From Herbaspirillum rubrisubalbicans (GTDB lineage: Bacteria > Pseudomonadota > Gammaproteobacteria > Burkholderiales > Burkholderiaceae_D): DNA of 64,000 bases. Below the pieces are notes generated by a model. It was given only the letters and a program-made list of their open reading frames with translations, was not told the origin of the DNA and made no database searches. Shown in pieces: positions 12,085 to 54,089 of this stretch (position 1 is its first letter; every line of letters starts with the position of its first letter). The translations under genes were made by a program, and so were the position numbers. The DNA lies in the NCBI RefSeq assembly GCF_003719195.1, contig NZ_CP024996.1, forward strand, positions 1,302,001-1,366,000, given 5' to 3'.

Positions 12085-13430
12085 AAGTTTTATTTACCAA
12101 TCCTCCGTGGTGGCCGGACCAGGCTCCACAGTTTGCCGATGGCCGTTTATATCACGCCGCAGGTGTGCGTGCAGGATCCCGTTGGCCGTTCACGATGGCA
12201 GTTCCCTTTGCGCCGGATCACTTTGAGTTCGGCTCCTATCTGCCGTATCCATTTTTTATGGGCTATGCGAGCACGTGGTTGGCGGCTAAGACAAGCGCTG
12301 ACGTGACTTTCAGGGACAGTATCGCGCTGCGCGAGTCCTATGACGCTTACCTTCGTTTTCTAGACAGCACTCGCTACGACTATATTTTTATCGAGTCGGC
12401 CACGCCGAGCTGGAACCATGATCGCTCTTTGATCCAGACGATCGCACATCGTTATCCTGGCACCCGCATTGTTGTCTGTGGTCCGATCTCGTCGCTGGGC
12501 GAGCAGCTTTTCAATGAGGCACCGTTGCATGCAGTGATTCAAGGAGAGTATGAAAAAGGATCGGTGCGGGTAGTGCAGGGCGAGCAGGGATTAATCGGCC
12601 ATGATCTGTTGACTGTGGCAGAGATGAATGCTTCACCGCATCCCTATTTTGATGCCTTACATGCCCATCGCTATTGGGATGGCAATCCGATTGGCTGTGT
12701 GCCGCCACAGGGGCACGTCTGGTCTAGTCGCGGTTGCCCCTTTAAATGCATTTTCTGTGTATGGCCAGCCACGATGACCGGCAATGACCCAGATGGTAGT
12801 GGAAAGCGGGTGGTGCGCCACTACAGCGCAGACTATATGGAAGATTTTCTGCGTGAGCTGGTGGCGCGCTATGGTTTCAAGACGCTTTATTTCGATGACG
12901 ATACCTTCAATCTCGGCGATAAACATGTACGCGAGATGTGTGAAGTCATGCGTCGTATTGGGGTGCCTTGGTCTGCCATGTGTCGCGCGGACAGTTCGTC
13001 AATGGAGCTGTGGCGTGAGATGAAGGACAGCGGATGCTTTGGCGTAAAACTGGGCTTTGAGAGCGGTAACCAGTATGTGGTGGATCACATCGTTAACAAG
13101 CGCCTCGATTTGGAGAAGGCCCGCCAGGCTGCAATGGAAATTAAGCGGACAGGGATGACCCTGCACGGGACTTTCACGTTTGGTCTGCCCGGGGAAACGC
13201 GCGAGCAGATGGATGACACGCGTCGCTACATCGCCTCTATTCCCTTTGACAGCGTTCAGCATTCAGGCTGCGCTGAAATCGAGGGAACGCCGTTGCACAC
13301 GCTGGCCAGTGGCGGCGAGATTCGTAACTACGATGGCGCGACCATTGATCCTACCTATATCCGTGAGTCCGATGGCGCATCCAAGTTGCGTCGGATGATC
13401 AGCATCTTCAGTGACAGGAGCAGAGGATGA
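12081..13430 (+). CDS. Radical SAM protein (B12-binding-like N-terminus)
   Basis: The start at 12081 overlaps the previous stop (ATGA) and gives 449 residues. The [4Fe-4S]-binding motif C219-x3-C223-x2-C226 lies in SSRGCPFKCIFC. It is followed by Elp3-type elements: YFDDDTFN, then GFESGNQ and FTFGLPGET. The first 170 residues look like the Rossmann-like domain of cobalamin-dependent radical-SAM proteins, but I see no clear D-x-H-x-x-G cobalamin motif. It is embedded in a sugar operon with four-base overlaps on both sides. A role in C-methylation, epimerisation or dehydration of a nucleotide sugar or glycan is plausible but unproven. The radical-SAM call is firm; the substrate is unknown. Confidence 0.8.
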   Translation: MKVLFTNPPWWPDQAPQFADGRLYHAAGVRAGSRWPFTMAVPFAPDHFEFGSYLPYPFFMGYASTWLAAKTSADVTFRDSIALRESYDAYLRFLDSTRYDYIFIESATPSWNHDRSLIQTIAHRYPGTRIVVCGPISSLGEQLFNEAPLHAVIQGEYEKGSVRVVQGEQGLIGHDLLTVAEMNASPHPYFDALHAHRYWDGNPIGCVPPQGHVWSSRGCPFKCIFCVWPATMTGNDPDGSGKRVVRHYSADYMEDFLRELVARYGFKTLYFDDDTFNLGDKHVREMCEVMRRIGVPWSAMCRADSSSMELWREMKDSGCFGVKLGFESGNQYVVDHIVNKRLDLEKARQAAMEIKRTGMTLHGTFTFGLPGETREQMDDTRRYIASIPFDSVQHSGCAEIEGTPLHTLASGGEIRNYDGATIDPTYIRESDGASKLRRMISIFSDRSRG

Positions 13431-37383: not shown

Positions 37384-37632
37384 TTATTTTTTGAGTTTTA
37401 CCTTTGCAATCTGCTCCTTCAGCGCCGGCGCGGGCTTGAACCGTACGGACTTAGATGCTTTGATCTTGATCGGTTCACCTGTTGCAGGATTACGTCCTTT
37501 TCGGGCGGCGCGTTCTGTGACCGAAAATGTTCCCAAATCTGCAAAGGAAAAGCGTCCTTCCTTTTTGAGCGCATGAACCTTCGACAATTCATGCTCAGTG
37601 GAGACCTAGTTGATGATTTCAGCTTTATTCAA
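37384..37632 (-). pseudogene. HU-family DNA-binding protein, degraded
   Basis: The C-terminal two thirds of an HU protein is readable from 37587 down (FADLGTFSVTERAARKGRNPATG). Reading in the same frame from a TTG at 37632 gives an HU-like N-terminus (NKAEIIN), then a TAG stop, then more HU-like sequence (ELSKVHALKKEG). Relative to normal HU (about 90 residues), about 15 residues between helix 1 and the beta arm are missing. The gene therefore has a nonsense codon and an internal deletion. A 67-residue product from 37587 would lack the dimerisation helices. Confidence 0.75.
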
Positions 37633-38167
37633 TTCTCAGACTCCATGTGATTAATAAACCCTTGCCAGTTAAGGATAGTGTGAAAGCCAAGTTTAGCAAC
37701 GTTATTTCAGCTAATTTCAGCGTTTCAACAAGTTTATAGGAGACGTTCACTCGCTCTCCAAGGTTCGACGTTTTATTCGTACGCGTCCCGGAGGCTCAAA
37801 GTAAGTGCCGAAACGGATCGTATCGCGCGGAGTCCCCGTTCTAGTGAGGGCAGCTTCTGGCACATTACGGACATCTTAGAGCAATAGCAATAGGCCATCG
37901 GGATTGAGTATTTTTTGGCCTTTCAGCGGTCCACGTCGACTGAACTAGACGCGTCCACGTCGCCGAACTAGGTGTCCACCCTTGCTGAAATACGCAACAC
38001 GTCCTGCTGAGTTATCGGCATTACCAAGATTTGCTGGCGCAGCATCGCAGCATTGCGGCTTCACTAGCGATGCCCGGCCAAGCCGATGTCGAGTTCAATG
38101 CGCCGCGCTGCAATATTCATTTACGCAAGGCTGACTTCTCATAAGCTGCGCAGCGGTACCGATTTTC
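37633..38167. other. Degenerate DNA with gene and IS-like remnants
   Basis: No intact gene. At 37929 and 37953 the string GTCCACGTCG recurs 24 bp apart, each followed by GAACTAG, and GTCCACC follows at about 37974; this looks like multiple terminal repeats of a lost IS (inference). A 46-codon open segment at 38004-38144 (SYRHYQDLL to HLRKADFS) looks like the 3' end of a displaced gene of unknown family. CGTACG occurs at 37778-37783. Confidence 0.4.
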
Positions 38168-39106
38168 TTAGATGCCTGGCATAAAAATTTTGGTGATTTT
38201 AGGACCAAGATAAACGCCAAGTGTCAGTCCATCGTATCGATTAAAGAATGTTTCAAATCCGAAACGGTGTATGTCTCCATTATCGTCAACAAGTTCAGCG
38301 ACATCGGCTCCCAAGGGGCCGCCCCGCTGGCTTCCGCAATAGCCTTCAAGAATCCTGAATAGATCTGTTTCCGCTAATTTGCTGAAACTTTTGGCAAAGG
38401 CGGTTGAACGGACAAAATGCTTACATGGCTTTGATGGGTTGAAATCAATTGCACGACGCGAAATATGTGGATGACCGGAAATTATGCCTACATATGGTAT
38501 CTCTTGGCCGACGCATTCGATGTAGCGATAAAGGGTCGAGGAAAAGGTATTCCCATAGGCTTTATGTAGGCGTTGAACAGACTGCAGATTGGGAGGTACC
38601 GATCGAGCTTCAGTCACGAAACGCTCCCGAAAAAAAAGTAATCTACCGGCAGCGTAGTTGGCCTCAGCTTCGATATGTTCCGAGCATTCCGGTGAAACTG
38701 TATGGCTATTGTCTCCGTGCATGAATTCTTCGTGCCACGGTATCAAGCTGTGTCCAATTTCATGCGCCTCATTCCATCGGTGCTTTAGAGGTGGCAGATC
38801 GCTATCCAGCAGTATTCGTTTGCGGTCAGGAAGATATAGCGCCTTAAGCGACCATTTTTTTATCGCCTCCTTCAGAAGAGAGGGGCGTTTAAGAATTTGC
38901 TGCCCCGCTACTCTAATCTTGCTGATCGATTCGCTAAGAATCCCTGGATCGTCAGCAGTGTAGAACGCCAAGTCTAACTTTAGTAACTCACGGACGTCCT
39001 CGAGATGCAATGGCGGCTCCGGATTTCCAAGTCCTTTGATGATGCGTTCTACACGTCCATCAATATCTTGGCTCGTCCTTGCAGATAGGATTAAATTAGT
39101 CGCCAT
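38168..39106 (-). CDS. ImmA/IrrE-family zinc metalloprotease
   Basis: A 312-residue protein. The zinc motif H115-E116-x-x-H119 sits in NEAHEIGHSLIPWH, with a downstream Glu-rich helix (HIEAEANYAAGRLL) likely supplying the third ligand. The family (ImmA, IrrE, CapP) cleaves or antagonises partner XRE repressors after DNA damage or phage signals. The preceding gene is such an XRE protein, 13 bp upstream. A C-terminal region of about 150 residues could be a sensor domain. It is the last gene of a four-gene minus-strand operon. Confidence 0.85.
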   Translation of the reverse strand: MATNLILSARTSQDIDGRVERIIKGLGNPEPPLHLEDVRELLKLDLAFYTADDPGILSESISKIRVAGQQILKRPSLLKEAIKKWSLKALYLPDRKRILLDSDLPPLKHRWNEAHEIGHSLIPWHEEFMHGDNSHTVSPECSEHIEAEANYAAGRLLFFRERFVTEARSVPPNLQSVQRLHKAYGNTFSSTLYRYIECVGQEIPYVGIISGHPHISRRAIDFNPSKPCKHFVRSTAFAKSFSKLAETDLFRILEGYCGSQRGGPLGADVAELVDDNGDIHRFGFETFFNRYDGLTLGVYLGPKITKIFMPGI

Positions 39107-39119
39107 TGCTCTTCTCTGT

Positions 39120-39611
39120 TTATCTTATTTTTTGGTCGTTTAGAACTGCTATAAATGCTTCAAGAGCTGCCTTTTCCTCTGGGGATAGTTCAGTAGATGT
39201 ATCGGAGCGCGCGGCAAATCTAACAGCTGCGTTCATAACATAAGCATTTCGTTGAGTTGTTAGACCTGATATTTGCATGAGCAGATTCTTTGGAAGATCA
39301 AAGAATTTGGCCAATTGATAGACGCTTCTTGGTTCAGGTGAATAGTTATTGTCAGTTTCAATCTCAAAAAGCTCAGAAATATCTATATCGACTTTTTCGG
39401 CAAGTGCTTCTCTAGAGAGTTTCTTATTTCTTCTTAAAAGATTTATGAAGCGGCCGAATACGATGTTTGGCCTCTCTAGCTCCAAACTTGAGAGCATTGC
39501 TAATACACTTTTCGGATCAGGATCCAACGCTAATGGGCCCGCGCTTACCGACTCGCCGGTATCGAAGCGAGCCATTCGAATGCACCAGTCTCTTGAGAAT
39601 TCGAATTTCAT
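39120..39611 (-). CDS. XRE-family helix-turn-helix regulator
   Basis: A 163-residue protein with an HTH at about residues 50-110 (FGRFINLLRRNKKLSREALAEKVDIDISELFEIE). The helical C-terminus ends in a Glu/Lys-rich stretch. It overlaps the GNAT gene by four bases and precedes the ImmA-like protease, giving a repressor-protease pair of the ImmR/ImmA or CapH/CapP kind. A likely target is the palindrome at 40541 in the divergent promoter (inference). A toxin-antitoxin reading of the pair is the alternative. Confidence 0.75.
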   Translation of the reverse strand: MKFEFSRDWCIRMARFDTGESVSAGPLALDPDPKSVLAMLSSLELERPNIVFGRFINLLRRNKKLSREALAEKVDIDISELFEIETDNNYSPEPRSVYQLAKFFDLPKNLLMQISGLTTQRNAYVMNAAVRFAARSDTSTELSPEEKAALEAFIAVLNDQKIR

Positions 39612-40240
39612 GGCTGATTTCCTTTCTCGATGAAGGCCGCAGCTTGCTCCGGCGTCATTTCGAAGTAGCGCAGATTCTTCACTTCAGTATCTATCCCGCA
39701 ATCTGTCATGCCATATTTTGTAAAAATATTGCTCGATGCCGGTAGAGCGTGAAGACCTACTCTCCCTTTAAATCCATCATGGATGCTTAGCTGGATCGCA
39801 GCTCCAACGAGTAACCTGCCAACACCTCGGAATCGGGGCGTCAACATCAGTTCTTTACGATTCCAGGGGGCGACCTCCATCCAGCGGATATACGCTAGAT
39901 CCTTATTGCGCTGGGAGGGGATTTGGCAGCGGCGATTGGATGTGTCCAGTGACATCATTCCTTGTGTAACCTCATCGCATACGACGCACATACTGGGGAA
40001 AGCCAGAAATCCTTTAACTGCTTCCGTCTTTTCTTTCCAGTTCCAGGAGTCGTTTTGTGGCCACCTGGACGCTTGGATATTGGCTTTTTGCATCCGATTG
40101 AGATTGGCCGCTAAGTTTGGGAGCCATTCTTTCTCCCAGTCAGCAATTTGATGATCGGTAATTTGATCCCAAATCTCGCCATTAACTGGTTCATCCGTCT
40201 CTGTTCTGAGAAGGAAAATGGGTGATCTGTCGACGCTCAT
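39608..40240 (-). CDS. GNAT-like acetyltransferase
   Basis: A 210-residue protein. The C-terminal half has GNAT features: a core strand (AYIRWMEVAPWN), a pyrophosphate-loop-like RFRGVGRLLVGAAIQLSI, then GRVGLHALPASSNIFTKYGM. The canonical R/Q-x-x-G-x-G/A loop reads RFRGVG. It overlaps both neighbours by four bases, including an upstream RHH gene, as in GNAT-RHH toxin-antitoxin pairs. It could be a toxin targeting aminoacyl-tRNA or a protein-modifying enzyme linked to the divergent operon. Confidence 0.55.
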   Translation of the reverse strand: MSVDRSPIFLLRTETDEPVNGEIWDQITDHQIADWEKEWLPNLAANLNRMQKANIQASRWPQNDSWNWKEKTEAVKGFLAFPSMCVVCDEVTQGMMSLDTSNRRCQIPSQRNKDLAYIRWMEVAPWNRKELMLTPRFRGVGRLLVGAAIQLSIHDGFKGRVGLHALPASSNIFTKYGMTDCGIDTEVKNLRYFEMTPEQAAAFIEKGNQP

Positions 40241-40452
40241 AGCATCATTACCAGTTCGGATCTCTCCTGAGCTCCGTTTTCAAAAAATAGTTTGTCGCCC
40301 CGTTCGACACGCATCTCTACCATTTGGTAGAGCTTCAATGCCTGCCTTACTACTTGGGTCTTACTAAGATCCTTTCTCTCGCTGAGCTCTTCCAGCGCAT
40401 TCATCTCTGCGTCGGTGAGATTCAGCGTCATCGTCTTTTTGGCTTGCGCCAT
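40237..40452 (-). CDS. Ribbon-helix-helix (CopG/Arc-type) DNA-binding protein
   Basis: A 71-residue protein with an N-terminal beta strand (KKTMTLNLTDAEMNAL) and two helices (LSKTQVVRQALKLYQM), the RHH pattern. A good ribosome site (GAGGAGAGAA) precedes the ATG on the minus strand. It is the first gene of the four-gene operon and overlaps the GNAT gene by four bases. It is probably an autorepressor or antitoxin partner. Confidence 0.75.
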   Translation of the reverse strand: MAQAKKTMTLNLTDAEMNALEELSERKDLSKTQVVRQALKLYQMVEMRVERGDKLFFENGAQERSELVMML

Positions 40453-40534
40453 TTTCTCTCCTCGCTAACTGCTTGATCTAAAAGGAACTATCGCAAGTGA
40501 ATTGTATGTTTAAAAAATAGCCGTGTCAAAGCCA

Positions 40535-40562
40535 TTGACTAGCTAAAATTTAGCTATAAAAT
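40535..40562 (+). promoter_or_regulatory. Promoter with embedded palindromic operator for the Ubl operon
   Basis: The -35 is TTGACT (40535-40540) and the -10 is TAAAAT (40557-40562), with a 16-bp spacer. The spacer carries the perfect palindrome AGCTAAA-A-TTTAGCT (40541-40555). A repressor bound there would block RNA polymerase. The first gene starts 48 bp after the -10. Confidence 0.65.
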
Positions 40563-40609: not shown

Positions 40610-41143
40610 ATGCAAACGCAAGAAAACGAAGTTTTTGATCTCTCTAATTCTGTTGCCAATGGGAAGCCAGTGCGCAATCACGGGCCTTACAGCGTTCTGT
40701 TTGGGAACGAGTCTTTGGAGTATCGCCCTGGTGTAATCGCAGACCCGGTGCCTACGGGGCTGCAGTTGCTAGATGCGGCGGGTGTACGTCCGTTGATGGA
40801 ATATCAAGTTTTCCAAGTGTTGTCCAATGGCATGCTCGAGAGATTGAGACAAGATGAGACCACGGACCTCCGGTCCAGCGGCGTGGAGAAATTCCTGATC
40901 TTCCGCAGTGATGCTTCCTATCGCATGATTCTGGATGACCGCGAAGTGGAGTGGGGGGGGAAATTCATCAGTGGCTTGACACTCAAAAAGCTCGCCGGCG
41001 TTGATCCGGTTGCCTACGGGGTCTGGCAGGAAATGCGTGGCGGAGGCGAAGATCGTCTTATCGGTGATAAAGATCTCGTCGACCTCAGTGCCCCAGGGGT
41101 GGAGCGTTTCTTTACTGGCTTGAAAGCGACGACGGAGGGCTGA
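40610..41143 (+). CDS. Tandem ubiquitin-like (multiubiquitin) protein
   Basis: Starts at ATG 40610, with AAGGAG six bases away (an ATG at 40607 is too close). The product is 177 residues with two beta-grasp-like repeats, roughly 20-95 and 100-175. The motifs resemble multiubiquitin-domain proteins (YRPGVIADPVPTGLQLLDAAG; GKFISGLTLKKLAGVDP). The chain ends in Gly (ATTEG), as expected for a conjugatable Ubl needing no trimming. The next genes encode E2-like, JAMM-E1 and zinc-binding proteins, spaced by 4 bp, a 4-bp overlap and 2 bp. I infer that it is the modifier conjugated by this system. Confidence 0.78.
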   Translation: MQTQENEVFDLSNSVANGKPVRNHGPYSVLFGNESLEYRPGVIADPVPTGLQLLDAAGVRPLMEYQVFQVLSNGMLERLRQDETTDLRSSGVEKFLIFRSDASYRMILDDREVEWGGKFISGLTLKKLAGVDPVAYGVWQEMRGGGEDRLIGDKDLVDLSAPGVERFFTGLKATTEG

Positions 41144-41147
41144 CGCG

Positions 41148-41528
41148 ATGGAGTACCTCCCTAAAAAGTGCCAGCGCTACCTTGCAAACCGGGGATTGCC
41201 TTACGAGCAGCTTGAGGAGGGTGCTCAAAAGGCCATCATCTTGCGTGACTTCAAGCTGCCTCAAGGAAAGTATGACGTTGCACATGCGGACATTCTCATC
41301 GTACTACCGGCAGGATTTCCTGACTGTGCTCCCGACATGTTTTATGCGTTGCCATGGCTTCGACTGAATGAGACACGCATGTACCCACGGGCTGCAGATC
41401 AGGCTGTCGTTTTCCAGGAGACGCCATGGCAGCGCTGGTCGCGACACAACAATGATTGGCGGCCGGGCGTAGATGGAATTTGGACAATGCTTAAACGCAT
41501 CGAAGATGCTTTGGAGGTGGCCGGATGA
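41148..41528 (+). CDS. E2/UBC-fold protein (prokaryotic E2 family E-like)
   Basis: A 126-residue protein. The UBC-like signature PAGFPDCAPDMFY (54-66) is followed by a loop RMYPRAADQ and the conserved block WQRWSRHNNDWRPGVDG (94-110), typical of E2-like proteins in multiubiquitin operons. The only cysteines are C8 and C60. C60 lies in the P-x-F-P-D-C-x-P-D turn, before the position where canonical E2s keep the catalytic Cys, so the chemistry may differ. It overlaps the E1 gene by four bases. Confidence 0.75.
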   Translation: MEYLPKKCQRYLANRGLPYEQLEEGAQKAIILRDFKLPQGKYDVAHADILIVLPAGFPDCAPDMFYALPWLRLNETRMYPRAADQAVVFQETPWQRWSRHNNDWRPGVDGIWTMLKRIEDALEVAG

Positions 41529-42931
41529 GCCCAGACTTAGTAGTCCAAGAAAGCCATTTGACGGAACTACGGTCATTGCTTGCTCGACCTGGCAACGTTG
41601 AGGCCTCTGCGTACATGTTATTCGGCGCTTGCGATATTCGGGCAGATCCGTGGAGCAAGCAGCGTCGCCGGCGCTATACCTCCTACGCTGTTGTCCCTGT
41701 TCCCGAAGAGGATTTGATATCTGCAGATGAGCAGCATGTCACCTGGGCCACGGCTTCGTTCGTTAGATTGCTCCGTCAAGCCAAAGCAGAGGGGTTGGTG
41801 GTCGCGATCGTGCATACCCATCCGACCGGACCTGCTGGCTTTTCTGGCCAGGATGATCGCAATGAACGCGAATTGGCGAAGTTGACCAGAAATCGAAATG
41901 GTCGATCTGCCGAGTTGCTCAGTCTTTTGCTGGCAGGTTCTGATAGTCTGGTCGCCCGTGTTTGGGTGGATCAGCATGAACCGCTTTCTATGCAACGGCT
42001 CCGTGTCGTCGGTCGGAAGTTCCGATTGCATGAACATCTGACGTCGGTAACAGGGCTTGAACATTTGGACCGACAAGCATTGGTATTCGGTACCGAATTA
42101 AACAAGATTATGCGGAGTTTGCGGATCGGTATCGTTGGCTGTGGTGGCACCGGTAGTGCGACAGCTATGCTGTTGGCCAGGCTCGGTATTGGACATATGG
42201 TTCTATTCGATGACGATGTTGCTGAGCTAACAAACCTCAATCGTTTGCACGGATCAAGGAGATCCGACGTTGATGCCATGCGTTCAAAGGTGGATGTCGT
42301 AATGCGGGAAATTGCTGAGGCAGGTTTGGGGGTAAAAGTCGTGCCTATGAGAGGCTGGGTTGGGGACTCCACCTTTCGCGATGCATTGAAATCCTGCGAT
42401 GTAATTTTCGGCTGCACAGACGACAATTCTGGTCGTTTGTTCTTGAATCGCCTTTCGCATTTTTACTTGATTCCGGTAATTGATCTTGGCTTAGCTATTA
42501 GCCCAAGCGATCAAGGCGAGAAAGTGAGGGATTTAAGCGGAAGGGCAACGGTGGTTTTCCCAGGTGCCCCGTGTCTGATGTGTCGTGGGGTCGTTGATCC
42601 GGTCAAGGCCCGTGAAGAAGATTTGAGAAGAGCCAATCCAGAAGAGTTCGAGCGGCAGAAGCGAGAGGCCTACGTACGAGGGGGCGGAAATCCTGCTCCT
42701 GCGGTGGTTACCTTTACAACGTCTACCGCGTGCATGGCCGTCGATGAGCTGCTTGAGGCTTTGGTTAGTTTTCGCGGCTCAGATGGGTGGGCATGGAATC
42801 GTGTGCGCAGATTCGATTTGGTCAAGGATCGTATGCCAGGCGCCAAAAGCGAAGAGCAATGCCCAATTTGTGATAGCAAGGAGTATTGGGGACGTGGTGA
42901 CGTTGAACCGTTTATGGATCGGGTAGCTTAA
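41525..42931 (+). CDS. JAMM/MPN protease-E1 (ThiF-type) fusion
   Basis: A 468-residue two-domain protein. The N-terminal JAMM domain has E26 and the exact H-x-H-x7-S-x2-D motif (H97, H99, S107, D110), a deubiquitinase-type zinc site. The C-terminal domain is an E1-like adenylating fold: GCGGTGS at 205-211, then FDDDVAELTNLNRL, with a structural zinc site from C350-x2-C353 and C446-x2-C449. Such fusions adenylate the Ubl C-terminus and remove the Ubl again. It sits in the order Ubl, E2, JAMM-E1, DUF6527, known from genomic surveys as a ubiquitin-like system. Confidence 0.88.
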   Translation: MSPDLVVQESHLTELRSLLARPGNVEASAYMLFGACDIRADPWSKQRRRRYTSYAVVPVPEEDLISADEQHVTWATASFVRLLRQAKAEGLVVAIVHTHPTGPAGFSGQDDRNERELAKLTRNRNGRSAELLSLLLAGSDSLVARVWVDQHEPLSMQRLRVVGRKFRLHEHLTSVTGLEHLDRQALVFGTELNKIMRSLRIGIVGCGGTGSATAMLLARLGIGHMVLFDDDVAELTNLNRLHGSRRSDVDAMRSKVDVVMREIAEAGLGVKVVPMRGWVGDSTFRDALKSCDVIFGCTDDNSGRLFLNRLSHFYLIPVIDLGLAISPSDQGEKVRDLSGRATVVFPGAPCLMCRGVVDPVKAREEDLRRANPEEFERQKREAYVRGGGNPAPAVVTFTTSTACMAVDELLEALVSFRGSDGWAWNRVRRFDLVKDRMPGAKSEEQCPICDSKEYWGRGDVEPFMDRVA

Positions 42932-42933
42932 CT

Positions 42934-43305
42934 ATGTTTATCGACTATGTTCGTAAGCTGCTGGTCGCTGGACAGTTGATTCCGAAGCCGGATATGACGA
43001 TCAGATTCATGGATCGGCATCCGAGCCCAAGTGATTTGAAACCGGGAGTTTTAGTAGTTGTGCGTGGCGGCGGCCAGAAAAAATGGGCTTGCTTCCAATG
43101 TCCAGGGGGGTGCGGCAACAGGTTTCAGTTGTCGCTTAACCAGACTCGGAGACCGAATTGGGTTATCGAGCACGACTGGTTGGGGCGACCTAGCGTATCG
43201 CCCTCAATTCACCAGAGGGATGCATGCCATGCTCATTTCTGGATTCGCGGCGGAAGGATTACTTGGTGTCCGGATAGTGGTCATCAGGCTTCTGGCGGAA
43301 CTTGA
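42934..43305 (+). CDS. DUF6527-like zinc-ligand-rich protein
   Basis: A 123-residue protein 2 bp after the JAMM-E1 gene. Candidate zinc ligands are C53, C56, C60 and, further on, C98, H99, H101 and C112 (CFQCPGGCGN and CHAHFWIRGGRITWC). I recognise the pattern as DUF6527-like, a recurrent partner of multiubiquitin/E2/E1-JAB operons. The Cys/His arrangement could be a treble-clef, which suggests an E3-like or substrate-recruiting role, but this is inference. Confidence 0.6.
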   Translation: MFIDYVRKLLVAGQLIPKPDMTIRFMDRHPSPSDLKPGVLVVVRGGGQKKWACFQCPGGCGNRFQLSLNQTRRPNWVIEHDWLGRPSVSPSIHQRDACHAHFWIRGGRITWCPDSGHQASGGT

Positions 43306-43364: not shown

Positions 43365-43916
43365 ATGTCTGGCAACAGTGAAAGCGTAGCAGAGAAGGCT
43401 GTAGAAACGGTTGGAGGCATATTGCAGAAGTTAGTAGATCTCCGTCTACTGGTTTTGGCAATGGCATTTATCGTCTATTTGGATATTTGGTTGATCTATG
43501 AAAATGTCGATGTCATGTCGAAGACAATTGCGGATGTGCTTAGCACAATGCATTCGTTGACAGTAAAGACTTTGTTCTTCTTTGTGGCTTCGTTTTCACT
43601 AATCATGACGGTGACGATTCCATCTGTTCGAGCAATCTATTCCGCGATCATGCTGCATTACGGGCCAAGCTCCATAGTTGCTGAGAACCGCGGAGCAGAA
43701 GAAAAGCAGTTTTCTTGCTGGTGCACCGCGCTGTTGTTCTTCACCATCTGGAATTATCTTGCTAGTTGGTTCACGACTCCAGATAAGTATCAGGGACTTA
43801 CGAGTATTGTTTTTAGCCAGCTGGAGCTGGACGGTTTCTTGATCGGTATTTTCCGGATTACCGTTGCTGGAATTCTCTTCTTTTGTTTTATGCGTACCGT
43901 TCAGGCGGATCTGTAA
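43365..43916 (+). CDS. Four-TM hypothetical membrane protein
   Basis: A 183-residue protein with about four transmembrane helices (LRLLVLAMAFIVYLDIWLIY; FFFVASFSLIMTVTI; CTALLFFTIWNYLASWF; FLIGIFRITVAGILFFCFM). It starts 59 bp after the DUF6527-like gene on the same strand, so it may be co-transcribed. The family is unrecognised. It could be a membrane effector of the conjugation system or unrelated cargo. Confidence 0.6.
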   Translation: MSGNSESVAEKAVETVGGILQKLVDLRLLVLAMAFIVYLDIWLIYENVDVMSKTIADVLSTMHSLTVKTLFFFVASFSLIMTVTIPSVRAIYSAIMLHYGPSSIVAENRGAEEKQFSCWCTALLFFTIWNYLASWFTTPDKYQGLTSIVFSQLELDGFLIGIFRITVAGILFFCFMRTVQADL

Positions 43917-44746: not shown

Positions 44747-45658
44747 ATGAGTAAGAACAAGAGAGCATCAACCAATAGCGCTATCTCTAGGCAAAAACGC
44801 GCCATCAAACAGAAACGCGGCCTCGGCCGTGGCCGGGAATACCAAGCATTTATTCAAGTTCGAAAACATGACTTCGGTAGTCACGGGAGGTCGCATATTT
44901 GGCGTAGCCCCTTGGATCTGTACGTTTCTCACCATCTTCTTTCTGACTTAGAACGTTTCACGATTTTGCAGGCAGCCGCCGCTGGCGCCGAATGCCGGGC
45001 TCAGTATCCATTGATTCGGGATGGCGTCGAAGATGAGTTCTCCTTGCGAGCTTTCAAGGCAGGGTCGATGAGTATTGCAAAGGATCTTGGGATTAAACAT
45101 CCGCACCTGGGTGGAGATGAAGAGAAGATCTTGACTACAGACCTGCTTCTCCGATTTCGCCAAAATAATTACATTGCAATCTACGTTAAGAACCACGACC
45201 AGCTACCTGTGCGCGGTTCTAGAGGGTGGGATTTGCTGCGGATTGAACGTACCTATTGGCGCCGGCGGAATGTCATGTTCCTGATCGTCACTGATAAGAC
45301 AGTCAAGATCAATGCCGTCATTCATTGGCTTGACTGGGCCTCGTCGTTCAAGCTCACCGATTACTGGGCCGGAGTTCTTCCAGATGAAGAAAAGGTGTAC
45401 GGCGTGGTCAACATGATTTTGGCGACAGATTCGCGGCTATCTATGTATGACAGGTTGAGCGAGCTGGATCTTCCACTGGAAGAGGCCGTAACCTTTCTGA
45501 AGTTTTGCATCTGGACTGGAGAATTAAAAGTTGACTATCTTCGAGCTCCTCAAGCCGATCTGGCGTGGCCATGGGTATTGGCGCCTAAAAGGAGCCGCAG
45601 TGTCCCCTCCCTGATTGTGTTGCCGGAGCTGCGTCGGTTCATGAGGACGGATGAATGA
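44747..45658 (+). CDS. tnsA: TnsA-like transposase endonuclease subunit
   Basis: A 303-residue protein. The N-terminus has GRGREYQAFIQVRKHDFGSHG, like Tn7 TnsA. The catalytic set is E69 (SDLERFTIL), D132 (LTTDLLLRF) and K148 (YVKNHD), paralleling Tn7 TnsA E63/D114/K132. LGIKHPHLGG just before the Asp is also shared with Tn7. The C-terminal half is the TnsC-interacting/HTH region. The stop overlaps the tnsB start. TnsA nicks the 5' ends to give cut-and-paste transposition with TnsB. Confidence 0.88.
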   Translation: MSKNKRASTNSAISRQKRAIKQKRGLGRGREYQAFIQVRKHDFGSHGRSHIWRSPLDLYVSHHLLSDLERFTILQAAAAGAECRAQYPLIRDGVEDEFSLRAFKAGSMSIAKDLGIKHPHLGGDEEKILTTDLLLRFRQNNYIAIYVKNHDQLPVRGSRGWDLLRIERTYWRRRNVMFLIVTDKTVKINAVIHWLDWASSFKLTDYWAGVLPDEEKVYGVVNMILATDSRLSMYDRLSELDLPLEEAVTFLKFCIWTGELKVDYLRAPQADLAWPWVLAPKRSRSVPSLIVLPELRRFMRTDE

Positions 45659-47832
45659 AAGTCGAATTGAAGCCGCTGGATATCTTCGAAATGAAGGGGC
45701 GTGGTGGAGGCTTGCGACCAGCGCGCTACAGAGTCCTTCGATGGGTGGATAAAGATAACGACTGCATCGTGTTCCCAATGCCCGAGCGTATACACGGGGG
45801 CACGGCAGCCTCAATCAAGATGCCCTTTTTGATTCCCAAACGCGTTGTTCTCAGTGCGGTTAAGGCTGGGACTGCATCACTAGTTTCTCGTGGTAGTGAG
45901 CCACCGCAATTAAAAGTAGCGGCCAGGCCTGCAAAAATGAAAACGCTGAGGTACGAGGAAGTAGCACGTGATAGAGCAGCGATCCTTCGTGAATTCTGTT
46001 TACTTGAGCTGCGGGACTTGCTGGAACAGCGAACACTGAGCGACGCGATAAAACTGATAGCAAGTCGCCATAGTTTCTCAGAGACTACGACTAGGCGATT
46101 GATCTTTCGATATTTTGAGTTAGGCCTCAATTTTGAGGCTGCGGTGAAACGAGGGCATAACGGAGGGAAAGCCGGGCGGAAGCGTGCCGGAACGAAAAAA
46201 CTAGGGCGCAAAAGAAGTATTGTAAAGGCTGGGTATGAAGGCTACGAGGGAATCAATAGCCAAGAACATCGGGATCTGGTCATTTCTTACATTCAGGCAG
46301 TTGGTAAGGATCGAAAGCGGAAGATATCACAGCAGCTTGAAGATTTTTATTCTCTGTATGCCTTCAAGGTGGTACAGCAAAGCGACGGGACGTTCAAGAA
46401 GGCAGCATATCCGGCGACAGAAAGACTATCGTATGCCCAGTTTCGTAGTCTCATAAAAGAGGTTGACGGCATTGACTACTACGTGCGCCACATGCCTGAT
46501 GCGAAACGGACCCGACTGTCGCGAGCGATTGGCGGAGATGCAAGAGAGCGGATTCCATTTCCAGGACATACCTACGTTATTGATTCTACTGTTGCAGATG
46601 TATACCTGGTTAGTGCATTTGATCGGGGGAAGATCATCGGTCGGCCTGTTGTCTACGTGGTAATCGACGCCTATAGCTCGCTCATTCTGGCTATCTATGT
46701 CACCTTGTCAGGTCCAAATTCCGTCGCAGCTAGGAAAGCATTCTATTTGGCGCTATCAGACAAGAAAAAGCTTCTCATGTATCTGGGGCTGGAAAATTTT
46801 GAGGAGCATTTTCGAGCAGGTATGCGGCCGTCATTTCTGTTGTATGACCGAGCCGAGCTGCATTCAAAAGGCGGCAGAGAGTTGCTTGAGTCTGTAAATG
46901 TAAGCGGGTCAGTTGCAGCCGCATACCGTTGCGATTGGAAATCGTTGGTAGAGCGAACTTTTGGCGTTATTAATGACAAGGTAATTCATTGGCTTCCAGG
47001 TGCAGTGATCAAGGCCGAAATGGAGCGCGGAAAGAAAGATCACCGACTTGATGCTGTTCTGACTTTGCACGAATTTTGGAGAATGATGGTGTTGTACCAA
47101 ATGGAATGGAATCTGACGAAGTCGCTTCACGGCCATATCAATCCCCCTATCTATGGCAAAGCAGTGAAGTCAATACCTCTTAACTACTGGGACTGGGGGA
47201 CTCAATATCTTCATGGATCGCCCTATATTTTTTCTCAAGATGAGTTGGTCAGGAAGGTTTTGCAACCTGAGGCTTTGAGGATCGATCCAGAGGGGATAGT
47301 TCTTAATGGGCGACGATACTTTGCCGACTGGATGAACAACGATCAGCGTTTTGCAGCATCAGGATTCGGTGAGATTCACTATGCAAATGCGATTTCGCTT
47401 CCAGAATGTCCAGAAATTGCACTTTGCGAAATGGAGGGGGAGACGTATTTTCAAGAGGTGTTTTTAAGGAAAAAAGTACGGTCGCAATACCCTGTTACCC
47501 ACGAAGATGTTGGTGATCTTGATGCAGATCGGAAGAATCAAAGAGATATCAATAACTTCGAAAACCAGGAAATAAAAGATGAGGTCAACAGAGCTACCAA
47601 TAGTTTGATTGAAGAAGCAAAGGAACAAGCCAAGATCATCCATACGAACGTACCGAAATCAAATGCGGAGAGGACGAAGAATATTCGCAAAAATCGTGAT
47701 GCCGAAATCTCTGGGGAGAACGACGCTGCTGATCAATATGCTGAAATTACCCCACAAGCTACCCTTGAAAGAGATGAAGTACATAGTGAATTAGATTCCT
47801 TCATTGATGCTTTGCTGGAGAAAAAAAGGTGA
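45655..47832 (+). CDS. tnsB: TnsB-like DDE transposase
   Basis: A 725-residue protein with an rve-fold core. The catalytic residues are D310 (VIDSTVADVY), D398 (LLYDRAELHSK) and E433 (SLVERTFG). The spacings of 88 and 35 are exactly those of Tn7 TnsB. N-terminal helix-turn-helix regions (about 100-270) would bind the ends, and the C-terminal 120 residues are acidic and helical, as for TnsC contact. It appears intact. The start overlaps the tnsA stop and the stop overlaps the tnsC start. Confidence 0.92.
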   Translation: MKVELKPLDIFEMKGRGGGLRPARYRVLRWVDKDNDCIVFPMPERIHGGTAASIKMPFLIPKRVVLSAVKAGTASLVSRGSEPPQLKVAARPAKMKTLRYEEVARDRAAILREFCLLELRDLLEQRTLSDAIKLIASRHSFSETTTRRLIFRYFELGLNFEAAVKRGHNGGKAGRKRAGTKKLGRKRSIVKAGYEGYEGINSQEHRDLVISYIQAVGKDRKRKISQQLEDFYSLYAFKVVQQSDGTFKKAAYPATERLSYAQFRSLIKEVDGIDYYVRHMPDAKRTRLSRAIGGDARERIPFPGHTYVIDSTVADVYLVSAFDRGKIIGRPVVYVVIDAYSSLILAIYVTLSGPNSVAARKAFYLALSDKKKLLMYLGLENFEEHFRAGMRPSFLLYDRAELHSKGGRELLESVNVSGSVAAAYRCDWKSLVERTFGVINDKVIHWLPGAVIKAEMERGKKDHRLDAVLTLHEFWRMMVLYQMEWNLTKSLHGHINPPIYGKAVKSIPLNYWDWGTQYLHGSPYIFSQDELVRKVLQPEALRIDPEGIVLNGRRYFADWMNNDQRFAASGFGEIHYANAISLPECPEIALCEMEGETYFQEVFLRKKVRSQYPVTHEDVGDLDADRKNQRDINNFENQEIKDEVNRATNSLIEEAKEQAKIIHTNVPKSNAERTKNIRKNRDAEISGENDAADQYAEITPQATLERDEVHSELDSFIDALLEKKR

Positions 47833-49091
47833 TGGAGAAGGTCGAGTATCGAACAGATGGGCTACATCCACGCTACATCGGTAACCCATTAATTGAAGCA
47901 CTTCCGCCAATTCTCGATCGTAAGGAGTGGGTTAGTTTTCTCTTGAGATACCCTGAAATCAATCTTCAAGAGACGCTTGATTTGCCACCTCATTTAAGGA
48001 TGCATGATGCACCGTTGATCACACATCTGAACATCCCTTTTGACACTACTGTCTCGTTGGCGACTCGAATTGATATCGAGATGCGTCAATCATTGAATCA
48101 GAAGCGACCCAATGAGCCAGATACTCAAAGATGGCTGGATAACGTCAAGAAAGAGATGGCGAAAAAGATCGAGAAAGGGATGGCAGATACAAATTCAACT
48201 ACTCCTAGCGGACGCTGTATTTCAGTTCTTGGGCCAAGTGGAATGGGGAAAACAAAAACCATCTTATCGATTTTGGAGCGTTACCCTCAAGTTATTGGGC
48301 ACACTGAATATAGAGGTATTCCGTTCAGGCAAAAACAGTTGGTATGGATATCGGTTAACGCGCCGGTAAATGGAGCGATTCGGGCACTTTGCGAGAGCCT
48401 GCTAATTCAACTTGATTTGGCACTCGGCAGTGATCCTGAAACCTCGTACCGGAAGCAGCATGGAGGTAAAAACATTGCCGGTAGTATTTTGCATATCGCA
48501 CAAATAATTTCTACCCACTCTCTGGGAATTCTGCATATCGATGATTTGCAACGTAGCGCCCGTACAGGAAAGGATCTCCTGGAGTTTGTGATTCAGTTGG
48601 CCAACGTAGCTAGGTGCCCCTTGTTGTTAAGTGGTACTAGTGCGGCCAATGAGATGCTCAGCAAGAGTCTGGAGGCTGGCCGCCGTAGTTGCAATGCTGG
48701 TGGTTTCCCACTCAACCTGCCTCGTACTGCTAAGGACAAAGAATTTCTGAGGTTACTTAAGGTTTTGTTTGACTATCAGTTGTTACCTGAGTCTATCGAT
48801 TGGGAAGCGGAGAAGGAAAAATGGGGGCCATATCTCTTCAAGTTGACTATGGGCATTCGAGGTGTGATGGTGACTGTGTTTTACGAGGCAATCATGGTTG
48901 CCTTAGAGCAGAACGCTAGAAAGCTAGAGGAAAGTCATTTTGAGGTAGGGTACGAGAGATTGGCGACATTGCACGCTCCCCTCGCGGTGTTGCGCAGTAA
49001 AGATGAAGATGCAATCCTAGAATACGACGACATGATCGACTCTGAGATGGCGCAAAAATACGATAGAGCGAAGCGAAGACATAAGAATTGA
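47832..49091 (+). CDS. tnsC: TnsC-like AAA+ transposition regulator
   Basis: The ATG at 47832 overlaps the tnsB stop by one base; a GTG at 47829 is the alternative. The product is 419 residues. The N-terminus YIGNPLIEALPP is typical of TnsC/TniB. Walker A is GPSGMGKT (134-141) and Walker B is LHIDDLQ (D237, D238). It should bridge TnsAB and a TniQ/TnsD target selector. The only TnsD-like gene nearby is truncated, so target selection may depend on a protein elsewhere. Confidence 0.9.
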   Translation: MEKVEYRTDGLHPRYIGNPLIEALPPILDRKEWVSFLLRYPEINLQETLDLPPHLRMHDAPLITHLNIPFDTTVSLATRIDIEMRQSLNQKRPNEPDTQRWLDNVKKEMAKKIEKGMADTNSTTPSGRCISVLGPSGMGKTKTILSILERYPQVIGHTEYRGIPFRQKQLVWISVNAPVNGAIRALCESLLIQLDLALGSDPETSYRKQHGGKNIAGSILHIAQIISTHSLGILHIDDLQRSARTGKDLLEFVIQLANVARCPLLLSGTSAANEMLSKSLEAGRRSCNAGGFPLNLPRTAKDKEFLRLLKVLFDYQLLPESIDWEAEKEKWGPYLFKLTMGIRGVMVTVFYEAIMVALEQNARKLEESHFEVGYERLATLHAPLAVLRSKDEDAILEYDDMIDSEMAQKYDRAKRRHKN

Positions 49092-49106: not shown

Positions 49107-49928
49107 CTAGAACAAATCAATTTGCAAATGTATCGGTGGCTTTCTTAACATTTTTTCGACCCAATTACGGTCGTATCGGCACAGCCAACGGAGCTTGATT
49201 GGTGCTCGCTGAAACAGATCTAAAAGGCTAGTGCATTCTTCATTTAAGAGCAGGGATAAGACCTCTTGCCTATACTCAGCACGTTTTCTCTCGCGCTTTG
49301 CTGCATTCCAGATATCGCTCAGAGGCTGATCATGTTTGATAACTTCCATTAGATGTGCCTTAGGAACTCGCTGATTTCGAGCAGCAGTTTTAATGTTCGA
49401 GCCATTCAGAAGTGTAGCGGTGATATCTACTTTTTGAACGATCAGAGCCGACTGAGGGACAGGGAATAGATCTGGAATTGGATAGAAGCTCAATGATGCA
49501 TGTCCAGGGTGTTCATTTTCAATTGGATCACGTGCCTGGGGAAGGGACGATAGGGCTATTGCCCAATGAACCGGATGGCACACCGTAGTCCCGTGGATGA
49601 GGGCCGAGATCCATCTTCCATGTTTTGCGTCTGATATTTCTGGCGCTGCTAAGCCCGAAAGATCTTCAAGGCCTGATCGGACAAAGTCAGTTAAATAGTC
49701 AATGTGAGAACGTTCATTTGACGTGCCTAGCTTGTAGGAAAGTGTCGAACGGACGATCGATCGGAGGAATGATTCGGTTAGATTGGCTTGCAGGGATAGC
49801 CAGTCCGTGGTGAGCAGAAGCTTGTAGAGAAATGTTTGCAGTGGATTTGAAATGGGCGCAGAGACCTGGAATTCAGGTGACTCTGGAGACGGGCATCTGC
49901 GCCAGTCATCTTTTGCCTGGCTGGAAGA
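49107..49928 (-). pseudogene. tnsD: TnsD C-terminal remnant (TniQ domain lost)
   Basis: About 273 residues match the C-terminal half of TnsD-type proteins, including LRWLCRYDRNWVEKML near the end. The N-terminal TniQ/zinc-finger part is absent. The frame continues without a stop into a LysR fragment, producing a chimeric 329-residue ORF to 50096. It is convergent with tnsC (15 bp between stops), unlike the co-directional order in Tn7. The truncation most likely arose by deletion. The remnant is probably non-functional as a target selector. Confidence 0.65.
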
Positions 49929-51699
<1,771 letters not shown>

Positions 51700-52172: not shown

Positions 52173-52404
52173 TTGGTGAAGAGAAAAAGAGAGGGAGAGC
52201 GGGAGAGCCTTGATCCCCCTGGCGGCGCCCCATCCGATCAACATCCGCATCCACTTTCCCCCGCAGGCTCGCGATAGGCTGTTGGTGCACCTGGAGCCGC
52301 CGAGATATGGGGCTGGCCGGCTAGCCATGTTGGCCGGTAATGCGCATTTCATGCCTGAAGATTCACTTTTTGCGTAGTGTAAATGCAGCATTGGGCGCAG
52401 ACAC
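52173..52404. other. Boundary between island and core DNA
   Basis: About 230 bp without a convincing gene. GC content and codon bias shift sharply upward across this stretch into the FAN1/DinG genes, marking the probable right edge of the accessory island. Confidence 0.45.
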
Positions 52405-52426
52405 GTTATACTGTTCATTCATACAG
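52405..52426 (+). promoter_or_regulatory. LexA (SOS) box overlapping a -10 element
   Basis: TACTGTTCATTCATACAGT (52408-52426) matches CTGT-N8-ACAG exactly. It overlaps a TATACT -10-like element at 52406-52411. It lies 17 bp upstream of the chosen ATG of the nuclease gene, so LexA binding should repress the nuclease-helicase operon until DNA damage. Confidence 0.85.
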
Positions 52427-52442
52427 TCCCGTGTTCTGTGCA

Positions 52443-54089
52443 ATGCCTGCTGTCCCCGACCCCCGCTTTTACTATCTCGGCAATTTCCAGTACGTGCTGG
52501 AGTGGCTGGCGCAGCGCTATGCCGACCTGTTGAGCGCGCAGGAACGCGACTTCATCGACATCTTCCCCGGACTGCCGCTGGCTTCACGGGCGCTGTTGGT
52601 GCGCATGATGATGCGCCGTGGCGAGCGCTTTCGTGCCAGCAAGTTGTGCTACCCGGAAATCGGTTGTCCGTTGCAGGCAGCGCAGGCACTGCCGGCCGGC
52701 TGGATTGAGCGTGATCCACTGCTGTCGCTGGCGCAGTTGTTCGAGCTCTCGACCAAGCCCGAGTTGTTGCGCATGTTCGACTTGTCCACCACGCACAAGG
52801 CCAGCCGCAAGAGCGAGCTGTTGGCGCTGCTGGCTAGCGACCCGGCCCATGCCGAGCTGCGTCCTTTCTCGCAATGGCAAGGGCAGGGCAGCGACCAGGT
52901 CTTGCAGTTGCATCAGCAGGCGCTGTGCGACCGGTTGCGGCTGATGTTCTTCGGTAACCTGCGCCAGGACTGGAGCGAATTCGTGCTGGCCGACCTGGGT
53001 ACCTTCCGCTACGAGCGCATCGCGCTGGCGCCCGAGGCACGCGGATTTCGCAGTCGGGCCGATATCGATCTCTACCTGCAACTGCACGCCTGCAAGGAGC
53101 GCTATTACGCAGGCGAAGCGGCCGCTGTGGTCCTGGCGGCATTGCCGACCGGACGCTTCGACAATCCCTGGCTGGAGAGCCGGCGCGAGCGCTTGCTGTT
53201 CCAGCTTGGGCAGTTGCTGGAGAAGGAGGGCGACTGGTCCCAGGCCCATGCCGTCTATGCCGCTTGCCGCTATCCCGGTGCTCGCGTGCGCGCCATCCGC
53301 GTGTTGGAAAAACAGGGCCGTTACGGTCCCGCGCAAGCCTTGCTGCACACCGCCCAGCAGGCGCCGGAGAATGACGCGGAGCGCCAGCAATTGCTGCGTA
53401 TCGCGCCGCGCCTGGCACGTCAGTTGGGGCTGCCGTGCAGTGCGCGTGGCCGCGCCCCCGCGGTGGAGCGCCTGGACTTGCTGCTGGCGCCTGGCGGCCT
53501 GCGGGTCGAATTGGCCGTGCAAGCGCATCTGCATGAGCCTGAGGCGCCAGTGTTCTACGTCGAAAATGCGCTGGTCAATACCCTGTTCGGCTTGTTGTGC
53601 TGGGAGGCCATCTTCGCCGCTATTCCAGGGGCGTTTTTCCATCCCTTCCAGCGCGAGCCGGCCGACCTGTTGAGCGCGGACTTTTATGCTCGCAGGCGGG
53701 ATGTCTTCCAACGCTGCCTGGCGCAGCTCGATGACGGCAGCTATCGCCACGCCATCCTCGCCACCCATGACGCCAAGCACGGCCTGCAATCGCCCTTTGT
53801 CGCCTGGGGCTGGGTCACCCGCGAGCTGCTGGTACTGGCCCTGGATTGCATCCCGGCGGCGCATCTCAAGCTGTGGTGTCTGCGTATCCTCGATGATGTG
53901 CGCGAGAACCGCGCCGGCTTCCCCGACCTGGTCCAGTTCTGGCCGCAACAACGGCGCTACCGCATGATCGAGGTCAAGGGGCCGGGTGACCGTCTGCAGG
54001 ACAACCAGTTGCGCTGGCTGGACTATTGCACCCGTCATGCCATGCCGGTCTCGGTGTGCTATCTGCAATGGGAGCCGGCAGTCGCATGA
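52443..54089 (+). CDS. FAN1-like VRR-NUC nuclease
   Basis: The start at 52443 is preferred because the in-frame ATG at 52383 lies upstream of the SOS promoter. The product is 548 residues. The C-terminal VRR-NUC domain has D495 (GFPDLVQF) and E510-x-K512 (MIEVKGPGD), followed by Q in DNQLRWLDY. The N-terminal and TPR-like helical regions match bacterial FAN1 homologues. FAN1 is a structure-specific nuclease for interstrand cross-link repair. The stop overlaps the helicase start (ATGA). Confidence 0.88.
   Translation: MPAVPDPRFYYLGNFQYVLEWLAQRYADLLSAQERDFIDIFPGLPLASRALLVRMMMRRGERFRASKLCYPEIGCPLQAAQALPAGWIERDPLLSLAQLFELSTKPELLRMFDLSTTHKASRKSELLALLASDPAHAELRPFSQWQGQGSDQVLQLHQQALCDRLRLMFFGNLRQDWSEFVLADLGTFRYERIALAPEARGFRSRADIDLYLQLHACKERYYAGEAAAVVLAALPTGRFDNPWLESRRERLLFQLGQLLEKEGDWSQAHAVYAACRYPGARVRAIRVLEKQGRYGPAQALLHTAQQAPENDAERQQLLRIAPRLARQLGLPCSARGRAPAVERLDLLLAPGGLRVELAVQAHLHEPEAPVFYVENALVNTLFGLLCWEAIFAAIPGAFFHPFQREPADLLSADFYARRRDVFQRCLAQLDDGSYRHAILATHDAKHGLQSPFVAWGWVTRELLVLALDCIPAAHLKLWCLRILDDVRENRAGFPDLVQFWPQQRRYRMIEVKGPGDRLQDNQLRWLDYCTRHAMPVSVCYLQWEPAVA

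Follow-up and report, generated by a model that had tools for sequence, protein, structure and literature searches.

A Bub operon of Herbaspirillum rubrisubalbicans and the divergent RHH–GNAT–XRE–ImmA cassette that faces it across an operator-like site

The stretch of 64 000 nucleotides of Herbaspirillum rubrisubalbicans analysed here (NCBI RefSeq assembly GCF_003719195.1, contig NZ_CP024996.1, positions 1 302 001 to 1 366 000; hereafter the window) carries a four-gene Bub operon for a ubiquitin-like protein (Ubl), an E2-like protein, a JAMM peptidase–E1 fusion and a DUF6527 protein. It faces a divergent operon of four other genes, coding for a ribbon-helix-helix (RHH) protein, a GNAT acetyltransferase-like protein, an XRE-type helix-turn-helix (HTH) protein and an ImmA/IrrE metallopeptidase (hereafter the cassette). 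Between the two lies an operator-like palindrome made of two TAGCTA hexamers (hereafter the doublet). The gene families, the conserved residues, the cassette, this site and its linkage to the cassette can be read directly from the sequences compared. An earlier note on this DNA described the conjugation genes; the divergent controller and the operator, which it left undescribed, carry the more unusual signal. We consider it probable, on balance, that the Bub operon is gated by DNA damage or infection, with the RHH protein repressing it through the operator, XRE/ImmA supplying a second input and the conjugation itself using oxyester chemistry.

Table 1. Features of the Bub operon, the cassette and the region between them (positions in the window).
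Feature	Positions	Strand	Evidence
ImmA/IrrE metallopeptidase (CapP-like)	38168..39106	-	Peptidase_M78 2.2e-6; PADLOC capP 1.4e-13; HExxH kept
XRE-type HTH protein (CapH-like)	39120..39611	-	HTH_19 2.5e-13; PADLOC capH 3.7e-5, best PADLOC match HTH_VI 5.3e-9
GNAT acetyltransferase-like protein	39608..40240	-	Acetyltransf_10 5.8e-4, below curated cut-off
RHH protein, CopG-like	40237..40452	-	RHH_1 3.4e-4; family profile matches CopG 3e-5
Predicted cassette promoter, TTGACA-17-TACAAT	40501..40529	-	consensus scan, 11/12; divergent
Predicted Ubl operon promoter, TTGACT-16-TAAAAT	40535..40562	+	consensus scan, 10/12
Operator-like palindrome TAGCTAAAATTTAGCTA	40540..40556	.	from last base of predicted -35 to base before -10
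Ubl, multi-ubiquitin-like (BubA-like)	40610..41143	+	177 amino acids; two Multi_ubiq/beta-grasp stretches; PF14452 E = 4.4e-36; last residue Gly177 (...TTEG)
E2-like protein (BubB-like)	41148..41528	+	PF14462 Prok-E2_E 3.1e-46; S98 at 41439-41441 in WQRWSRH
JAMM peptidase–E1 fusion (BubCD-like)	41525..42931	+	ThiF 8.5e-35; Prok-JAB 1.8e-10
DUF6527 protein	42934..43305	+	PF20137 1.1e-22

The cassette and its operator-like site

An HTH repressor and an HExxH-bearing ImmA/IrrE protease, encoded divergently to an immune-type operon, form the CapH/CapP layout, and this layout is matched in the window. The residues H115, E116 and H119 of ImmA are invariant in a 16-row alignment, in which locus L041 is represented by its other ImmA, adjoining its Bub operon. 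The APWN and GxG motifs of the GNAT protein are invariant across 17 aligned copies. As judged from these families, the RHH–GNAT–XRE–ImmA/IrrE operon is an extension of the known CapH/CapP controller.

All four cassette genes were found by profile search in 17 further loci. The survey covered mainly plasmids, with two genome stretches carrying the GNAT gene, one of them with the cassette. There are GNAT matches in 52 plasmid records (the H87 and H89 plasmids are recorded a second time as H88 and H90); 18 regions were fetched, and the other 32, of which 31 are cyanobacterial by name, lie outside the survey. The fetched cyanobacterial loci L054 and L060 have no RHH, XRE or ImmA gene by profiles. 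On chromosomes, GNAT matches occur in 4 of 398 genomes of the phylum, the own genome included, and in 2 of 385 of another class, among them G303. The latter (L067) has the full cassette and G357 (L068) the GNAT gene alone; G109 and G654 are outside the fetched set.

The divergent neighbour is a JAMM-type Bub operon in seven loci (L040, L042, L049, L052, L053, L057 and L058, with L052/L053 and L057/L058 as near-copies). In L047 and L067 it is a DUF6791–ThiF multiubiquitin variant with DUF6527, where the profiles gave no E2 and no JAMM domain was recognised. Three loci (L048, L050 and L051) have cyclase, AAA and SAVED genes annotated as a cyclic oligonucleotide-based anti-phage signalling system (CBASS). 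The sole CBASS locus run through PADLOC, L051, matched the cyclase, HORMA, TRIP13 and SAVED-PDDEXK models, presumably the kind named type III. In L059, an unannotated plasmid of Rhizobium sp. WYJ-E13, a Bil-like operon (2385-5646) with a Multi_ubiq protein, a JAB protein and a BilD-like E1 lies behind the cassette, and the doublet is perfect. L055 has an E1-N-ThiF/JAB/Metal_CEHH operon, its JAB match just under the cut-off. The Bub operon of L041 comes with its own XRE–ImmA pair, and the cassette is located downstream of that operon. The GNAT proteins of L047 and L040 are 70% identical and their E1 proteins 24%, which indicates that the cassette has been reassorted. A tree of the GNAT proteins groups the three CBASS copies on a single branch among the Bub copies. 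In the Bub locus of Rhizobium CIAT894 (L058, 8195-9820), an annotated anti-phage dCTP deaminase gene immediately follows that for ImmA, and a dcd gene is present beyond the Bub operon in L058, L042 and L057.

XRE/ImmA and RHH/GNAT might instead be two toxin–antitoxin pairs that merely maintain the cassette in the genome. RHH–GNAT pairs are a known toxin–antitoxin layout (TacAT type). In addition, COG2856 and HTH genes beside 70% of multiubiquitin genes have been read as toxin–antitoxin systems in a 2016 survey (PMC4963859). PprI/IrrE and CapP, however, are described in PMC10904395 as proteases that cut repressors. Moreover, the cassette diverges from a recognised conjugation operon, CBASS operon or variant of one in 13 of the 17 further loci (14 with L055), and the doublet is in the intergenic region toward that operon except in L055. 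We consider two such maintenance pairs improbable.

Between the RHH gene and the divergent gene, the pattern TAGCTA-N5-TAGCTA is matched at all 12 fixed bases in 11 of the 18 loci, the window included, and at 11 bases in five more, so that 16 of the 18 cassette promoter regions reach 11–12. The regions of L041 and L047 were cut at 200 bases, the far end being arbitrary in L041, where no divergent operon is defined. Dinucleotide shuffles give a mean best match of 7.0 to 7.7. Among 29 Bub operons that lack the four-gene cassette, none reaches 10 within 300 bases upstream, the highest value being 9; this control excludes L011 and L012 (same as L013), L014, L015 (cut), and some of its operon starts are approximate. 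When up to one mismatch is allowed, the own genome (5.6 Mb) contains a single site with this pattern, and the reversed control has 13 matches per strand. Extra hexamers in phase at 11 bp are indicated by mean matches of 3.5/6 at -11 and 3.2 at +22 in 17 regions (L055 left out), and L051 has four hexamers in a row. A promoter of the Ubl operon at this site is plausible from its sequence (table 1).

The doublet is absent where XRE/ImmA occurs without RHH–GNAT: L039 (Synechocystis) reaches 8/12, the Bub operon of L041 reaches 7, and the promoter of G755 has no match above 9. This makes the RHH protein the likelier binder of the operator, although locus L023 calls for caution. Tandem sites are common targets of RHH proteins.

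The doublet could also belong to an RptR-like repressor and not to the cassette: RptR of Escherichia coli binds the same hexamer in the promoter of a defence island (PMC12255303). RptR is all-helical, however, and a PDB search with the profile of the RHH family yields CopG and not RptR. The doublet also tracks the cassette (11–12/12 in 16 of 18 cassette loci versus at least 10 in 0 of 29 controls), and we hold an RptR-like origin to be most improbable.

The Bub operon and its conserved residues

The four-gene set is real and its order is as given in table 1; chance is excluded. The earlier note had described a tandem Ubl ending in Gly, an E2-like protein, a JAMM–E1 fusion and a DUF6527-like protein as an operon for ubiquitin-like conjugation and removal. 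Pfam matches and open reading frames bear out the order, and this reading of the operon is supported. The E2-like and JAMM–E1 reading frames share four bases. A JAB–E1 relative followed by DUF6527 is found in 24 of the 25 loci drawn from the genome collection, with L011, L012 and L013 repeating one another; the exception, L014, has only a partial E1. The E2 family gave nine matches at E <= 0.001, own included, in a draw of 398 phylum genomes, six of them over the curated cut-off. The named-system models of PADLOC gave no match for the Ubl, E2-like or DUF6527 proteins, and among the matches listed for the E1 domain there are only E1–E2 models.

The operon had been set apart from Bub as a separate, less characterised multiubiquitin type. 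Sequence comparison contradicts this: the JAMM–E1 protein matches Citrobacter BubCD (PDB 9ea4) at E = 4.2e-33, the E2-like protein matches Citrobacter BubB at 5.6e-12 as a single sequence and at 1.6e-24 with the family profile, and two Citrobacter plasmids (L037 and L038) carry a related set, with a multiubiquitin–E2 fusion, ThiF and DUF6527. On these grounds the operon is filed under Bub, a known kind, and by its position we take the DUF6527 protein to be BubE-like. Ahead of the plasmid sets are two genes, annotated as ATP-binding or hypothetical and as DNA-binding or winged HTH, which would fit CapK/CapS. Such operons were predicted in 2006 by Iyer et al. as type 6e, with a polyUbl, an inactive E2/RWD-like protein without a conserved Cys, a JAB–E1 fusion and a metal-binding protein (PMC1779556). 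The same conjugation set was noted on pSYSX in the 2016 survey of Synechocystis toxin–antitoxin systems (PMC4963859). PMC13373217 places CapW or CapH+CapP beside 219 of 544 Bub operons.

Residue counts for Ubl, E2 and E1 refer to 120 listed homologues of 319, 488 and 1908 found, respectively. The Ubl has fewer than 260 residues in 112 of the 120; of these, 103 end in Gly and 102 in Glu-Gly. TTEG immediately precedes the E2 part in all eight Ubl–E2 fusions listed, and in the Ubl of L003 it is followed by GAQ; these forms need a cut after TTEG, which fits the JAMM domain. The JAMM residues of the JAMM–E1 protein are intact (numbering follows P0121, 97% identical), with E26 in 119/120 and H97, H99, S107 and D110 in 120/120. 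All four cysteines Cys350, Cys353, Cys446 and Cys449 of E1 are also present in every one of the 120 and constitute a probable zinc site.

In the E2-like protein, S98 is kept in 120/120 listed homologues and in 50/50 of a broader set, and lies in the most conserved stretch. The motif QRWSRH is present in Citrobacter BubB and reads QGWSRH in the plasmid copy L037. There is no invariant cysteine: Cys8 occurs in 75/120 and Cys60 in 22/120, and none is invariant in the broader set. Conjugation by Bub reportedly proceeds via oxyester intermediates, a serine replacing the cysteine in BubB, and the conservation of Ser98 fits this route. The complete pathway of the earlier note thus stands as regards genes for attachment and removal, but not as an ordinary E1–E2 cascade, since its E2 lacks an invariant cysteine.

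An ordinary thioester E1–E2 defence system, with a cysteine carrier and free expression, would agree with the E1 and E2 families and with C297 of E1, found in 120/120; the FTT motif is conserved too, and neither was singled out as the carrier. Such a system is at odds with the patchy E2 cysteines, with the operator-like site in the upstream region and with the description of this E2 type as inactive and RWD-like for want of Cys (Iyer et al. 2006, PMC1779556), and we regard it as very unlikely. T396 of E1 was rejected as a nucleophile, as it is not conserved in a 24-row alignment.

The DUF6527 protein has nine invariant positions in a 22-row alignment: V43, W51, C56, P57, P74, W76, P90, S91 and H101. 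It had been called zinc-ligand-rich; the family assignment stands, while among its predicted zinc ligands only C56 and H101 are invariant. Ser91 and His101 occur in 22/22 rows and in both Citrobacter copies (L037 and L038). This agrees with a Ser-His (serine) protease activity, said to have been suggested for the DUF6527-type Bub protein, without proving it. Profile searches found no relative of solved structure for either the DUF6527 or the GNAT protein.

Probable acquisition and genomic surroundings

A close copy of the E1 gene is present in none of 33 other genomes of the genus, which makes the operon look acquired. G755 has a distant Bub E1 with 29% identity; the remaining genomes of the genus gave weaker adenylating-domain matches only, two of them none at all. 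A phage origin of the locus was rejected, as the Ubl has no relative among 50,697 phage records and no relative of the GNAT protein was found in viral contigs.

The window also carries Tns genes at 44747-49091. TnsA has a Pfam match at 1.3e-7, a TnsC-like protein matches AAA_22 at 8.4e-13 and TniB at 1.1e-4 (just under the cut-off), and TnsB is assigned by size and position only, its Pfam matches being insignificant. A TnsD-like C-terminal piece at 49110-50096 on the minus strand (3.8e-6, under the cut-off) has an N-terminus that by eye is a LysR fragment; the Tn7-like element looks damaged on this side. A repeat search found no element ends and flank searches in 30 relatives found no empty site; DNA shared with relatives resumes near 52400. 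In Tn7, tnsA lies near one end; here it is the Tns gene nearest to the Bub operon, which may therefore be outside the element. Carriage of the operon as Tn7-like cargo was set aside, and the Tns genes are treated as context only.

To the left of the ImmA gene of the window, within 37808-38003, lie some 110-150 bases that recur, 80-83% alike, to the left of the different Bub operon of G755, whose controller is of the XRE–ImmA kind. This stretch has its counterparts at 13027-13172 and 1346-1453 of L096 and 8126-8234 of L097, with other matches within the genus in G751, G753, G754, G756 and G758; it is perhaps a shared insertion site or a remnant of a mobile element. Nearby, an HU-like DNA-binding protein (37384-37587) lacks its N-terminal third, matching the profile from position 34 of 90. 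Directly after the DUF6527 gene, 43365-43916 codes for a 183-amino-acid protein with hydrophobic stretches, which has neither a Pfam match nor a relative among the scanned cassette and Bub loci. A FAN1-like VRR-NUC nuclease (52383-54089; VRR_NUC 2.5e-35) lies where relative-shared DNA resumes.

A possible switch and its known relatives

We infer the binder of the operator, the chemistry, the trigger, an immune role and the action of the GNAT protein from these features. The RHH protein would sit on the tandem TAGCTA hexamers, spaced at 11 bp over the promoter, and keep the operon off; the XRE/ImmA pair, acting like CapH/CapP, would lift repression once the protease senses DNA damage or infection. 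The E1 domain would adenylate the Gly that ends the TTEG tail and pass the Ubl to the E2-like protein, where Ser98, not a cysteine, would carry it as an oxyester. With possible help from the DUF6527 protein, the JAMM domain would both mature the Ubl by a cut after TTEG and strip it from targets. More tentatively, the cassette may be a portable two-input switch, in which a toxin–antitoxin-like RHH–GNAT pair is wired onto CapH/CapP, so that an immune promoter would open, via one shared TAGCTA-N5-TAGCTA operator, either when a short-lived RHH protein is lost (host shut-off) or when the protease is activated (DNA damage). Such a switch would have moved among Bub, Bil-like and CBASS operons.

Several points count against a gated immune operon of this kind. 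The whole account is drawn from sequence, and the oxyester and Ser-His protease ideas are carried over from what is reported of Bub. The GNAT protein scores under the Pfam cut-off, and four listed Ubls (P0316, P0336, P0342 and P0352) have an extended C-terminal part that finishes in Lys-Ser and lacks the terminal Gly. The promoter scan gave four promoter-like sites in 4.6 kb, with 4.8 expected by chance. The doublet reaches only 10/12 in L041 and 8/12 in L055 (p = 0.17), and the mean matches at the in-phase offsets -22 (2.4) and -33 (2.3) fall within the range seen out of phase (0.8 to 2.8). The XRE protein could be the binder instead of the RHH protein, as both are present in all cassette loci. 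The control L023 is evidence that an RHH gene by itself does not mark the site: it has one of this family, transcribed divergently from the Bub operon, but no GNAT gene and no doublet (7/12). Nothing recognised as an immune operon lies divergent to the cassette in L056, which has a Cas9 gene downstream, or in L061, which has a restriction enzyme gene nearby and whose short, unannotated ImmA (6000-6704) is placed by profile evidence only. Finally, a 2026 paper states that a phage-stopping effect of Bub operons has not been demonstrated (PMC13373217).

Conjugation might instead serve repair or proteostasis after DNA damage, as a stress response and not against phages. The Bub authors leave this open (PMC13373217), and controllers of the CapH/CapP type respond to DNA damage. 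Against this stands the same cassette, with its doublet, before CBASS genes (cyclase, HORMA, TRIP13 and SAVED-nuclease models), and we consider a stress response of this kind rather unlikely.

By itself, the operon is one more Bub system. The occurrence of one cassette and one operator-like site before several immune systems that are unrelated to one another, CBASS included, would tie Bub to immunity by its regulation, a link that reaches where phage tests of Bub have not. The sharing of this switch suggests how such systems stay off until needed. The 17-bp site is a handle for finding further systems under the same switch, and the controller offers a way to switch Bub on in order to seek its trigger and targets.

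The window shares with Citrobacter Bub (PDB 9ea4, 9ea5, 9eae and 9eav) the Ubl, the E2-like protein with a WSRH motif, the JAMM–E1 fusion, DUF6527 and an adjoining controller. It differs in its separate Ubl and E2 genes, its TTEG tail and the four-Cys site of E1, the last of which is missing from the two Citrobacter plasmid copies. Its E1 is 28% identical to that of one Citrobacter plasmid, and its controller is RHH–GNAT–XRE–ImmA, whereas Citrobacter has CapK/CapS-like genes. Type 6e, including pSYSX of Synechocystis, has the same four genes in the same order, but upstream of the pSYSX set there is only XRE–ImmA, without RHH–GNAT and without the doublet (8/12). TacAT-type pairs have an RHH gene that overlaps a downstream GNAT gene, as here; their antitoxin is an RHH protein of the DUF1778 type, whereas the RHH protein of the window is CopG-like (DUF1778 gave no match at E up to 1, and the best Pfam match is RHH_1) and is co-operonic with XRE and ImmA.

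RptR, a repressor of an E. coli restriction–modification island (PMC12255303), also has tandem TAGCTA hexamers in a defence promoter, but its fold is all-alpha and unrelated, it controls restriction–modification, and the hexamers lie within 9-bp repeats. The CapH/CapP controllers share with the window an HTH repressor and an ImmA/IrrE protease adjoining an immune operon; the window additionally has RHH and GNAT genes within the same operon, together with the TAGCTA doublet. Among the matches listed in full-text literature searches, whose scope excluded subscription papers such as the primary CapH/CapP paper, and in PMC13373217 under the terms searched, RHH–GNAT joined to XRE–ImmA with the doublet is not mentioned. 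CapH+CapP beside Bub is already in print, and the combination of RHH–GNAT, XRE–ImmA and the TAGCTA doublet is, provisionally, new.

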